From Fluviicola sp. (lineage in GTDB: Bacteria; Bacteroidota; Bacteroidia; Flavobacteriales_D; Crocinitomicaceae), in assembly GCF_039596395.1 (NCBI RefSeq), contig NZ_JBCNJT010000002.1:248001-312000 (forward strand): a DNA stretch of 64,000 nucleotides. Direction: 5' to 3'. Below, piece by piece: positions 2,595-44,823 of this stretch. The translations under genes were made by a program, and so were the position numbers. Under the pieces are notes generated by a model, which did no database searches, was not told where the DNA came from, and saw only the letters and a list, made by a program, of their open reading frames with translations. Numbering within the stretch: position 1 is the stretch's first letter; every line of letters starts with the position of its first letter.

Positions 2595-3371
2595 CTAATT
2601 GACCACAATAGTTCGCGTATCAAAAGTCCTCGCTGAAAAATAGCCCATACATCCGCCGCTTAAGTTAGAAATCGGGTTTGCAGGTGTGGCACTGCTCGAA
2701 GAATTCACTCCCAACTGGTTGAAATACGTATGGACCGGTTTGTCGATACCGAACATATCCACACGAACCGTATCGCCCACTTCCAACTCTTGGATAAACA
2801 ATGGCTGAACCACCAGGTTCCCGTCTGTGAACTGGTCGTCCTGGATGAAAATGTTGTTATTCTTTTTCCCGTTTATGTAAACATGGAACTGGTAATAATT
2901 GGCAACTCCCTGTTCATCGTAGTGCGCCGGGACCACCGAACGAAGGGTATCGGCCCCGAACGGATAAAAGACGGAATACAATCCCTGGAAAGGCTGATAA
3001 GAAGGCATCGTACTGCTTCCGGTGTAAGAAGTTCCGTCCACAACGGTTGTCAATGTGTAAGTACGGCCTTCAATTCCCGGGTAGTTCGTTAATTCGTACC
3101 AACCATTTCCTACCGCTGTAAATGTTCCTGCATTTCCATAGTTATCGATCACGGTTATGGATGCATTATCTACCGTCGGGGGAGCCGTGCTCTCATCGAA
3201 ATTCTGGGTTCTGGTAACACGCACTCGTTGAACGGTATCACCTCTTAAGATAAATCCTTCGATCACCACTTTTTGCTCGGTATCGTTCAAATCCACGTCA
3301 ATGACTTTTTCACAGCTTGAAAAACCCAAAAGAACGGCAAAAGAAATCCATATAATCAGTGCAAATTTCAT
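2595..3371 (-). CDS. DUF4249 family lipoprotein
   Basis: A 258-residue outer-envelope lipoprotein. The signal peptide ends in a lipobox, GFSSC, with Cys20 as the expected lipidated residue, followed by ekvidvdl, a typical start of DUF4249 proteins. The body is beta-rich with no catalytic motif. DUF4249 proteins are regularly encoded next to a TonB-dependent receptor in Bacteroidota, as here, where the gene begins 1 bp after the receptor gene ends. By analogy with SusD-like partners it is probably a surface or periplasmic accessory subunit of that receptor; this is inference. Confidence 0.8.
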   Translation of the reverse strand: MKFALIIWISFAVLLGFSSCEKVIDVDLNDTEQKVVIEGFILRGDTVQRVRVTRTQNFDESTAPPTVDNASITVIDNYGNAGTFTAVGNGWYELTNYPGIEGRTYTLTTVVDGTSYTGSSTMPSYQPFQGLYSVFYPFGADTLRSVVPAHYDEQGVANYYQFHVYINGKKNNNIFIQDDQFTDGNLVVQPLFIQELEVGDTVRVDMFGIDKPVHTYFNQLGVNSSSSATPANPISNLSGGCMGYFSARTFDTRTIVVN

Positions 3372-37956: not shown

Positions 37957-39195
37957 TTAATTAAACACCACGATTGTCATTTCTCCTGCATTTGAATTTA
38001 CAGCAGCATTTCCTCCCATTTGTGCAGTTCCGGAACCAGCATATTTCAATCCGTACAATCCGAAAGTATAACTGCCTGTTGTAGGTACCGTATACATCGT
38101 GCTTAACGGCAAAATTCCTCCTCCGGTAGTTGTATGTCCGCTGGTATTATCCCAATACATCTGAGAATAAGCCCCGGTAGGTAAAAATCCCCCGTTGACA
38201 AAAATACATGCTCTTACATCTGCCCATTGCCCTACGGTAAGTGAAGTAATATTACCTCCGACAACAGCATGGATCATTACTTTTTGTCCTGCAGTCAAAC
38301 TAATTGTTTGTGAACATCCGGGAATTAATGTCAAGGTTGCCGGATTTGTTATATACCCGGTAGAAGACACATAATAAGTAGCAACTACTCCTGATGGACC
38401 TTGAGGACCTGTTGCACCGGTTGCACCCGTAGCTCCTGTTGGTCCTGCCGGACCCGCTGGACCTTGAGGACCTGTAGCACCAATCGGACCTTGTGGTCCT
38501 GCCGGACCTGTTGCTCCCGGTGCTCCGTCAACACCATTTGTTCCTGCCGGACCCGCTGGACCTTGAGGACCCGTTGCTCCAATTGGACCTTGTGGACCTG
38601 CCGGACCTGTTGCTCCCGGTGCTCCATCAACACCATTTGTTCCTGCCGGGCCTTGAGGACCTGTCGCTCCAATCGGACCTTGTGGGCCTGCAGGACCTGT
38701 TGCTCCTGGTGCTCCGTCAATACCGTTTGTTCCCGCAGGGCCTTGTGGGCCTGCCGGTCCTGCTGCGCCAGCTGGTCCTGCCGGACCAGTTAAACCGATC
38801 GGGCCTTGTGGACCCGCTGCACCGGTAGCTCCCGCCGGACCAGCCGGGCCTGTTGCTCCGGTTGCACCTGTAGGACCCGCAGGTCCTGCCGGACCTTGTG
38901 GCCCTACTCCACCGGCACTGCATAAACTTGTCCAGGACGCAGCAGTGCTTTCATAAAAGAAAAAGCAATTCACATCAATATCATAAACAAGCAATCCTTC
39001 CGTAGGAGCAGCAATGGCATTCCGTTGAACGGTTGTCATTCTTGGCACCAATACTCCCTGACTGGTGGATTGCATTTCCAAAATAGCATTTGCATTCGGT
39101 GTAGTTGTTCCGATTCCTACATTGTTTTGAGCATAAACCGCCCCCACTCCGAAGACGAATGCTATAGCCGCAATAAAGTTCTGTTTTTGTAGCAT
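37957..39195 (-). CDS. Secreted protein with a long collagen-like Gly-X-Y domain
   Basis: Protein of 412 residues: signal peptide (cleaved near AQ, residue 23), an N-terminal region of the type often found on Bacteroidota tail-fibre-like surface proteins ([17 protein letters not shown], residues 25-75), an unbroken run of 57 Gly-X-Y triplets at about 98-268, and a C-terminal beta-rich domain of about 140 residues. The triplets are rich in GPQ, GPA and GAT and are expected to form a triple helix, so the protein is probably a trimeric stalk with a globular tip. No T9SS sorting domain is visible, so the secretion route is unclear. It lies between a T9SS type B gene and a small secreted protein gene. 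Confidence 0.82.
38392..38904 (-). repeat. Collagen-like repeat tract
   Basis: A 9-bp Gly-X-Y period runs for 57 triplets. Inside it, a 30-33-residue super-repeat (GTN[27 protein letters not shown]) occurs three times, giving DNA copies 90-99 bp long. Confidence 0.88.
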
Positions 39196-42110: not shown

Positions 42111-42136
42111 AAAAAAATCCCCCGAAAATTCAGGGG
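42111..42136 (-). terminator. Rho-independent terminator of the sigma operon / candidate small RNA
   Basis: On the minus strand the stem CCCCTGA/TTCGGGG (one G-T pair) is followed by GA and seven T residues. On the plus strand it lacks a T-run, so it is specific for leftward transcripts. Confidence 0.85.
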
Positions 42137-42247
42137 ACTTATTCAAGCCAGTTCTACCTTGCCTCGACTATTTCGTTATCGTTTGAGCTGTAGTAATTTT
42201 TCAAACTCCTTTGGAGAAGTTGACAACGAAATAAATATCTTTCTACC
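42111..42247 (-). ncRNA. Candidate ECF-sigma-dependent small RNA downstream of the sigma operon
   Basis: A transcript from the CAACC-N14-GCATC promoter would be about 135 nt and end in the stem CCCCTGA/TTCGGGG followed by seven U. A long-range stem TATTTCGTT/AACGAAATA closes the 5' half. There is no ATG in the predicted transcript, so it is unlikely to be a message. It could instead be only the 3' UTR of the anti-sigma gene, whose stop is a few bases upstream of the promoter; a specific promoter placed exactly after the stop favours an independent or processed RNA. Confidence 0.45.
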
Positions 42248-42252
42248 CCTTA

Positions 42253-42276
42253 GATGCACTATCTTTTAAAAGGTTG
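42253..42276 (-). promoter_or_regulatory. ECF sigma-type promoter, copy 2 (directly after the anti-sigma gene)
   Basis: CAACC at 42272-42276 and GCATC at 42253-42257 on the minus strand, spacer 14 bp, with the context TTTCCAACCTTTTAAAA shared with copy 1. It begins 5 bp after the stop codon of the barrel-fused anti-sigma gene and points at no gene. Confidence 0.65.
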
Positions 42277-43651: not shown

Positions 43652-44170
43652 TTATGAAACCAATTTTTGTTTGAGCACGGAGCGTGCATAATTCAATTGT
43701 GACTTGGAAGTTCCCACGGAAATTTCCAGTTCTTCCGCGATTTCAGAATGCGACCATCCTTCCAGCGCGTATAATTTGAGCACCAATCCCGCTTTTGTTG
43801 GCAGCAGGTTGATCTCTTCCAGTACTTTGGCAAATGGGATTCCTGTTTCCAGATCCGCTTCTTCCTGGTCCACAAAAGGAACATCTCCCAATTGTGCGAA
43901 ATTCTTTCTTTTACGCAGTGTTTGAAGGCAGCAATTCACGGTAACTCTTCGCAGCCAGCCTTCGAACGACCCTGTAAATGTATATGAACCAATGTTTTTA
44001 TAAATGTGCATGTACGCGTCGTGCAGCATATCTTCCGCATCCTGCGTATCCGAACCGTACAATTTACAAACCTTGAACAGGTCTTTCGAGAAAAGACGAT
44101 ACAACCGTTCCTGTGCAGATCGTTCCCAATTTGCGCAGCCTTCGATGATATCTTTGTATTCTGCAGACAT
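43652..44170 (-). CDS. ECF-type RNA polymerase sigma factor
   Basis: Protein of 172 residues with sigma-70 region 2 at about 15-85 (LYRLFSKDLFKVCKLYGSD, DAEDMLHDAYMHIYKNI) and region 4 at about 105-168 (LYALEGWSHSEIAEELEISVGTSKSQLNYARSVLK), the two-domain form of ECF sigma factors. The ATG overlaps the stop of the upstream lipoprotein gene by one base (TAATG). The downstream gene is the probable anti-sigma factor. A CAACC-N14-GTATC motif upstream of the operon suggests autoregulation. Confidence 0.92.
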   Translation of the reverse strand: MSAEYKDIIEGCANWERSAQERLYRLFSKDLFKVCKLYGSDTQDAEDMLHDAYMHIYKNIGSYTFTGSFEGWLRRVTVNCCLQTLRKRKNFAQLGDVPFVDQEEADLETGIPFAKVLEEINLLPTKAGLVLKLYALEGWSHSEIAEELEISVGTSKSQLNYARSVLKQKLVS

Positions 44171-44823
44171 TATTCAACGGTTAAAACCAATGCGTTTGGT
44201 ATTTGTGCAGTGATTTTATTAAACATATTAACGTTGTAATCCTTGTTTATAACCACCGTCGGAACACCGTTTTGATAAGGCTTCTGAGGATCATTAGATA
44301 AAGTACTTGGAACCTCCGAAAACAATTTATTGATATCAAACCCAATAAACACTTTGTAATTCTTCTTTTTCTGCAGGAAGAACGGATTTCGAATCTTAAA
44401 ATTCAAATCATCCAAATCAGTCCATTCAATGACCATCGGAAAAGATTCCGGTCCTTTAGAATAAGTTCCTTCCAAACGGATACTCGGATTATTCGACTTA
44501 TCGATCAATGTTTTCAAATTGAATTCCGTGTAACTTCCCATAGGTACATCCAATGAAATGTACAAATCATCTTCCGTGGAAAACTGTACCTTCTGAGCGG
44601 GTAAACTCTTCGTAATCTCAATCGGAGAGCCCTTTTCACGAGTACCTGAAACAGTGAATTCTTTGGAATAAAAGAACCCTTTTGTTACCGCATAATTTCC
44701 CTGACTATTGGTTGTTGATTGAAATTTCCAATTTAGTCCAAGATAAGCAGGCTGCTTCAAGTTGTATCTTTCACAACCGGAACCTAAAACCACCAGTATC
44801 AATAATAGGTATAATGCCCTCAT
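44170..44823 (-). CDS. Lipoprotein of unknown function, first gene of the ECF sigma operon
   Basis: Protein of 217 residues. The start MRALYLLLILVVLGSGC gives a lipobox (LGSGC) with the lipidated Cys at position 17; longer in-frame starts would bury it. The rest is beta-rich (about 15 strands by eye) with repeated FxxxL and YxV patterns and no known domain. It shares an operon with the sigma and anti-sigma genes, with its stop codon overlapping the sigma start, so it may be a periplasmic or outer-membrane sensor or a regulated envelope protein. The leader is short, about 15 nt after the ECF-type -10 element. Confidence 0.8.
   Translation of the reverse strand: MRALYLLLILVVLGSGCERYNLKQPAYLGLNWKFQSTTNSQGNYAVTKGFFYSKEFTVSGTREKGSPIEITKSLPAQKVQFSTEDDLYISLDVPMGSYTEFNLKTLIDKSNNPSIRLEGTYSKGPESFPMVIEWTDLDDLNFKIRNPFFLQKKKNYKVFIGFDINKLFSEVPSTLSNDPQKPYQNGVPTVVINKDYNVNMFNKITAQIPNALVLTVE

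Follow-up and report, generated by a model that had tools for sequence, protein, structure and literature searches.

A candidate sigma-dependent small RNA behind a Dma-like anti-sigma gene in Fluviicola, and a second RNA under a copy of the same promoter

The sigma operon and the sRNA-1 locus

The window, by which we mean the whole stretch of 64,000 nucleotides of Fluviicola sp. DNA that was analysed, carries a sigma operon of three genes on the minus strand (44823 to 42281). Behind it follow, all on the same strand and in this order, the anti-sigma stop codon, an ECF-type promoter, a putative non-coding RNA, which we call sRNA-1, and a terminator. The next gene past sRNA-1, tlyA, is convergent. 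The features of the operon and of the locus behind it are as follows.

44871-44845, minus strand: promoter copy 1, of the sigma operon, 21 nt before the ATG (44823-44821) of the first operon gene
44170..44823, minus strand: first operon gene, lipoprotein-like; no Pfam or NCBIfam match at 0.001
43652..44170, minus strand: ECF sigma factor, 172 aa
42281..43648, minus strand: anti-sigma gene, 455 aa; no family match at 0.001, layout predicted
42279-42253, minus strand: promoter copy 2, of sRNA-1, TTCCAACCTTT-N13-ATC; -35 box and ATC invariant across the 13 genomes
42111..42244, minus strand: sRNA-1, predicted transcript of about 134 nt, its start placed from the -10 box
42168..42234, minus strand: stem P1, 13 bp, arms 42234-42222 and 42180-42168, enclosing a small hairpin and a loop
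42200-42190, minus strand: loop 1 with AAAATTACTAC, inside P1
42143..42167, minus strand: stem P3, 5 bp, with loop 2 AAGGTAGAACTGG at 42160-42148
42140-42115, minus strand: intrinsic terminator of sRNA-1, 11 pairs, with T7 at 42117-42111

The anti-sigma stop codon occupies 42283-42281, and promoter copy 2 starts at the second base past it; counted from CAACC (42276), the promoter starts 5 nt past the stop, which is how an earlier note on this DNA had placed it. The same note had described a stretch without ATG giving an RNA of about 135 nt, a long-range stem and a clean terminator with seven T residues. These descriptions agree with our examination, in which the predicted RNA (~42244-42111) contains no ATG and measures 134 nt from its presumed start, a 13-bp stem, P1, is present, and the 11-pair hairpin is followed by the T7 run. 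A scan for sigma-70-type promoters gave none at the sRNA-1 site, as is expected for this phylum. At the level of sequence, sRNA-1 thus appears as a non-coding element with its own promoter and terminator and without a conserved reading frame. Its promoter is conserved and common to the sigma operon, and transcription by the envelope ECF sigma factor is predicted.

The structure prediction of the anti-sigma protein gave helices at residues 8-100, a membrane helix at 110-131, an Asn-rich region without structure at 132-281, and strands at 282-454. The model has a mean pLDDT of 43, with residues 1-277 all below 50 and the barrel blocks at 45-78. Its best structure matches include the OmpA, NspA, Ail, OmpX and OmpW barrels, and weak Pfam matches, below the cut-off, also point to an outer-membrane barrel. 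The Dma anti-sigma factors, described in PMC13088901 as a recent class reported only from Bacteroidota, consist by that account of an anti-sigma domain, a membrane helix, a long disordered tether and a C-terminal barrel. Compared by the description of this layout, the Fluviicola protein is predicted to be of the Dma type: its gene lies in an operon with the cognate ECF sigma factor, and a cytoplasmic domain, a membrane helix, a disordered linker and a C-terminal barrel are all present as predictions.

Conservation and structure of sRNA-1

Promoter, RNA and terminator were found at this place in 13 of the 14 Fluviicola genomes. The anti-sigma gene is present in 13 of the 14 as well, and in all 13 the promoter stands directly past the stop codon, followed by the RNA and the terminator; no match to this gene at 0.001 was obtained in 45 genomes outside the genus. 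Across the 13 genomes that have the operon, the -35 box and the ATC are 100% identical and stand at a constant distance; of the 13 columns of the spacer, five reach only 31-46% identity and the others 62-92%. A hairpin with a T run ends the RNA in 13/13, with several different terminator stem sequences of the same form.

When we compared the sRNA-1 core with the window copy, seven genomes gave identities of 93-99%, one gave 84% and four gave 50-55%. For the anti-sigma DNA the corresponding values were 64-76% among the eight closest relatives and 51-55% among the divergent four, and the DNA beyond the sRNA-1 terminator was 41-50% identical to that of the window. It is therefore in the eight close genomes that an excess conservation of the sRNA-1 core over the gene is established. 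The four divergent genomes show no such advantage of the core over the anti-sigma gene, and there only the promoter and the loops stand out. Among close relatives the length of the core differs by single bases (CTCCATGGAG, CTCCAATGGAG, CTCCAAAGGAG, CTCCAAAAGGAG), and these one-base indels exclude a shared reading frame.

The fold of sRNA-1 has an energy of -40.1 kcal/mol (z = -4.1; none of 200 shuffles as good) with the terminator included, and a window stretch without the terminator, cut short at P3, gave z = -1.5. The cores of the four divergent genomes alone gave z values of only -0.7 to -2.0, and terminator-like sites in the region numbered four against 3.6 expected. What exceeds chance at sRNA-1 is its conservation. 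In the nine close sequences 97.9% of the stem cells are paired, against 30-53% (at most 52.8%) in slid versions; five pairs show a change in one partner, and no pair shows changes in both. The earlier note had proposed looking for conserved structure with compensatory changes; the pairing is indeed kept, while two-sided changes are absent from the nine close copies. Support for the stems therefore comes from conservation and from the way in which the divergent genomes redraw them, not from covariation. Read from the folds, a P1-like stem with other letters occurs in all four divergent genomes (AAATGCATCATT/AATGATGCGTTT, CACTGTC/GACAGTG in two, and CATCGTC/GACGATG), and P3 is rebuilt in two of them as TTAGTG/CACTAA. 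Loop 1 keeps ATTACTAC in 11/13 genomes and loop 2 keeps GTAGAACTGG in 12/13; G005 is without loop 1, G006 has it altered, and G004 is without loop 2.

We then scanned a genome collection with one genome per species (84,980 species) with a pattern containing both loops. The scan gave 12 stretches, eight of which, in genomes of the genus, show the sRNA-1 arrangement or are cut at a contig end. The other four, in other organisms (L047, L048, L051, L054), were rejected, since by eye they are coding-like and have no such promoter or terminator. A covariance model built from the nine close copies recovered only those nine and one contig-end copy among 240 genomes of the family Crocinitomicaceae. This model misses even the four divergent Fluviicola genomes, and its silence is therefore no argument against distant relatives. 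No Rfam family, RybB and MicA included, reaches its gathering cut-off; the best by E-value is PyrR, with 28.6 bits against a cut-off of 54.

Two records deserve separate mention. The UBA5869 assembly contains a second copy of sRNA-1 at a contig end (L053; G002:C100:29224-29293), which is perhaps due to a strain mixture. The record CP034120.1 (L046; G003, in the genus of the window) is titled Glaciecola amylolytica THG-3.7, by name a member of the Gammaproteobacteria, and carries the operon and sRNA-1; it seems to be misnamed.

The promoter family, sRNA-2 and candidate targets

Promoter copies 1 and 2 have 17 identical bases in common. The looser pattern CAACCTTTT-N10-20-GCATCTAA has a single match in the window and none in 100 shuffles. 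In the whole genome the two copies are the sole perfect matches to CAACCTTTT-N13-TCTWAG, a pattern derived from those very copies. Near-matches to it are rarer than those of the reversed control (38 against 65), and the regulon therefore seems small. A third copy, which the earlier note had overlooked, lies 24 kb from sRNA-1 before a second candidate RNA, sRNA-2.

18111-18085, minus strand: promoter copy 3, of sRNA-2
18080-17987, minus strand: sRNA-2, about 93 nt by its presumed start, with a hairpin TCAG..CTGA, a GU-rich stretch and a terminator GGGTAC..GTACCC with T5

When we searched the 14 genus genomes with TTCCAACCTTT-N13-RTCW, allowing at most one mismatch, 40 perfect sites were obtained, 34 of which fall at three places: 13 before sRNA-1, 10 before the sigma operon and 11 before sRNA-2, with six scattered. 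The remaining three sigma operons have the promoter TTACAACC, with one mismatch; one-mismatch sites are common among the matches listed. G010, the sole genus genome without the operon, has no perfect site and no sRNA-2. Two of the scattered sites, one each in G000 and G001, precede genes that by eye encode similar secreted proteins (L111, L113). Two further recurrent ECF-like sites with a CGTCT box, TTACAACCTTTTGTATAATTTGGCGTCT and TTACAACCTTTTTACTTTCTAAACGTCT, were seen in G000 (C1:1745133-1745160 and C2:1240075-1240102) and its relatives, and these probably belong to another ECF sigma factor.

sRNA-2 is flanked by genes for a leucine-rich-repeat protein and a D-Ala-D-Ala ligase, with no operon gene nearby. 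It contains the nearly invariant stretch ATTGGTTTGGTAAATTGGGTTTTAGGTTTGG, with one additional T in L107, and its 24-nt core is exact in 11 of the 14 genus genomes; those without the exact core are two with the operon, whose assemblies are 83-84% complete, and G010. In the other 226 genomes of the family nothing was found at up to two mismatches. Three matches at three mismatches in other genera were taken as chance, the reversed control having also matched in three genomes. The fold of the window stretch, which was cut in the terminator, gave z = -0.9, and that of the L102 copy z = -4.8.

For the target searches we took the 15 matches to the barrel family PF13568 in the window's own genome, 12 of them above the cut-off, and read the gene starts. 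One of these genes has CCAAACCAAT just behind its TAnnTTTG box, an exact complement of ATTGGTTTGG in sRNA-2. Of the 12 orthologs in the genus, 11 retain the 9-nt complement CAAACCAAT, G013 having CCAACCAAT, and in G004, G009 and G011 it is present although the remaining leader differs. In a genus-wide search for CAAACCAAT before ATGAA, the candidate target place appeared in 11 of the 14 genomes, and a few other strings recur; among seven other such loci that we inspected, L183 and L193 both mark the start of the same 108-residue protein, in two closely related genomes. G010, which is without sRNA-2, has 12 matches to the same pattern. A second 10-base match to sRNA-2 exists among 115 gene starts, so that the match of sRNA-2 and target by itself is near chance, and the energy of the duplex is equalled by 14-45% of shuffles. 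It is through the conservation of its complement that the outer-membrane gene is a candidate target of sRNA-2. A relative of this gene occurs twice in tandem in G004 (G004:C181:2140-2247 and 2957-3070). Pairing of sRNA-2 with the start of the sigma gene (TACCAAAC) was also considered and dropped, as the site is coding sequence of the preceding gene and is not kept in all the relatives inspected.

The earlier note had suggested a search for complementarity between sRNA-1 and the 5' ends of outer-membrane protein messages. No convincing target came from it, either by GTAGTAAT before ATGAA in the 14 genomes or by exact matches to the 115 gene starts of the window's own genome. In many genomes the matches listed for GTAGTAAT-ATGAA hardly outnumber those of the reversed control. 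Two individual cases were rejected: a recurrent one before the gene of a protein beginning MNQIACPNCG lies upstream of a TAnnTTTG-like box, and one before a gene that we take to be lysA-like was read in two close genomes only.

Reading of the locus and outputs in related genera

Based on these observations, we suggest that sRNA-1 is best read as a sigma-dependent small RNA, as the earlier note had proposed. This reading is supported by the promoter with fixed spacing in 13/13 genomes, by a core that is better conserved than the gene in eight relatives, by the terminator of its own, and by the missing reading frame. The comparison with sigma-E of E. coli, which was part of that proposal, is strengthened by a second RNA that has a copy of this promoter and by the barrel predicted in the anti-sigma protein; the part in which sRNA-1 lowers outer-membrane protein synthesis found no counterpart in the target searches.

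We consider it probable that the whole locus is explained by a Dma-type sigma factor which is released on envelope disturbance and drives its own operon and two trans-acting small RNAs. The anti-sigma protein, predicted to span from the cytoplasm to a barrel in the outer membrane, would hold the ECF sigma factor, and disturbance of the barrel or of the outer membrane would release it. The freed sigma factor would then transcribe its own operon, sRNA-1 as a primary transcript of about 134 nt, and sRNA-2 of about 93 nt, all from copies of one promoter. Both RNAs would most likely pair in trans near the starts of surface-protein messages and lower their translation. sRNA-2 probably uses ATTGGTTTG to pair with the CAAACCAAT that the candidate outer-membrane protein gene has in its 5' leader, and the likely contact sites of sRNA-1 are the two conserved loops with ATTACTAC and GTAGAACTGG.

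These same loops, mostly conserved on stems of changing sequence, would also suit an RNA that binds a protein as a sponge rather than pairing with messages, and the outcome of the target search for sRNA-1 is in line with this. However, that search covered one exact pattern in the genus and exact matches to the 115 gene starts of the own genome, and we know of no protein partner for sRNA-1; we regard a sponge as rather improbable, though deserving of consideration.

Because the stretch adjoins the last operon gene, read-through from promoter copy 1 should stop at the same terminator, and the stretch could then be just the 3' UTR of the operon mRNA, without a transcript of its own. This is unlikely, since a promoter of fixed spacing stands between gene and RNA in 13/13 genomes, the eight closest relatives conserve the core better than the gene, and sRNA-2 has the same promoter with no operon gene near. 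A processed 3' fragment may exist besides the primary transcript.

The closest sigma relatives outside the genus have an operon of the same kind, and their arrangement raises the question whether sRNA-1 is, or was, the attenuated leader of a downstream gene. Past the anti-sigma gene, L094, L096 and L098 have a promoter copy with a small lipoprotein gene immediately after it. The copy in L093 and L095 is followed first by a different small gene and then by one more copy; the promoter match is poorer in L097, the frame is another one in L088, and L090 has no copy near the stop. Within Fluviicola itself, a small lipoprotein gene follows the RNA in the divergent L041 and L044. The L041 gene scores over the cut-off of the Pfam family Lipocalin_4 and the L098 gene below it, so 'lipocalin-like' appears to be supported for the former and weakly for the latter. 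On the other hand, the next gene in the window, tlyA, is convergent, the terminator closes the RNA in 13/13 genomes, and the gene in L041 and L044 seems by eye to own a TAnnTTTG-like box. We therefore give the leader similarly little credence: it is good as an origin of sRNA-1 and weak as its present function. That sRNA-1 is the message of a small protein can hardly be maintained, because the 16-codon TTG frame seen by eye in the window copy is broken by one-base differences between close relatives and there is no ATG.

Three genomes of another genus, g5 (G017, G136 and G137; L089, L091 and L092), carry this promoter downstream of the anti-sigma gene as well, but on the opposite strand. The RNA predicted from it, about 150-200 nt long and closed by a terminator, has CCAGTTAACC and GTAGTAGC in common among these genomes and differs in sequence from sRNA-1. 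The RNA ends right behind the anti-sigma stop in G136 and G137, and about 285 nt off in G017, with a promoter copy between. We do not claim homology of this RNA to sRNA-1, as only one of the three loci gave a right-strand match to the sRNA-1 model within the RNA, at chance level (L092, 10.5 bits, E 2.2). With the model at chance level in g5, we claim only that the arrangement is the same.

Returning to the sigma-dependent reading, we see about equal grounds for accepting and for doubting a broader proposal. The core regulon of the Dma-type sigma factor in Fluviicola would be non-coding, its own operon aside, with the two small RNAs as the only outputs conserved in the genus. It would be a separately evolved Bacteroidota counterpart of sigma-E with RybB and MicA, and the output at the promoter behind the anti-sigma gene would vary by genus: small lipoproteins in some genera, a small RNA in Fluviicola, and a different RNA on the opposite strand nearby in g5.

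In Salmonella, two sigma-E-dependent RNAs, RybB and MicA, are described as lowering outer-membrane proteins (PMC1804206). The likeness lies in an envelope-sensing ECF sigma factor that drives two small RNAs, with outer-membrane protein messages being known targets there and a candidate here. Fluviicola differs in the design of its anti-sigma factor, in the absence of an Rfam match at cut-off, and in that its targets are putative. FoxI and FoxJ of Fusobacterium nucleatum, reported as sigma-E-dependent and both acting on the porin FomA (PMC11005410), likewise form a pair under a single ECF sigma factor, in a bacterium that is not a proteobacterium. Set side by side by description, they belong to another phylum and have been tested by experiment, whereas the Fluviicola pair is known from sequence. 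As for the Dma factors themselves, the main text of PMC13088901 contains neither 'sRNA' nor 'small RNA' and deals with effects on vesicles and polysaccharide loci. Rfp11 of Flavobacterium psychrophilum, a putative regulatory RNA listed under the ECF-type promoter SM6 (PMC9723704), comes from the same class of bacteria; compared by promoter description, SM6 has a CGT box at -10, unlike the ATC of the Fluviicola promoter. BatR of Bacteroides is given a -7 promoter box and action on surface genes (PMC10861873).

In the literature on small RNAs, envelope stress and ECF factors of Fluviicola, Bacteroidota and Flavobacteri, neither of the two RNAs nor a Dma-type link was found described among the matches listed. 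The kind of circuit, an envelope sigma factor with two small RNAs, is thus already known, and this pair and the Dma-type link are new within the literature searched. The bacterium seems set to answer trouble at its outer membrane with two small RNAs, as E. coli does with a different pair, and a Dma-type sigma factor with two small RNAs as conserved outputs would provide a route from outer-membrane sensing to surface-protein control. If this is true, the combination of an envelope sigma factor and two small RNAs, known in Proteobacteria and Fusobacteriota, extends to a third phylum with a different sensor.

Elsewhere in the window, the minus strand at 37957-39195 encodes a protein of 412 residues with a long collagen-like repeat (GPAGP, GATGP).
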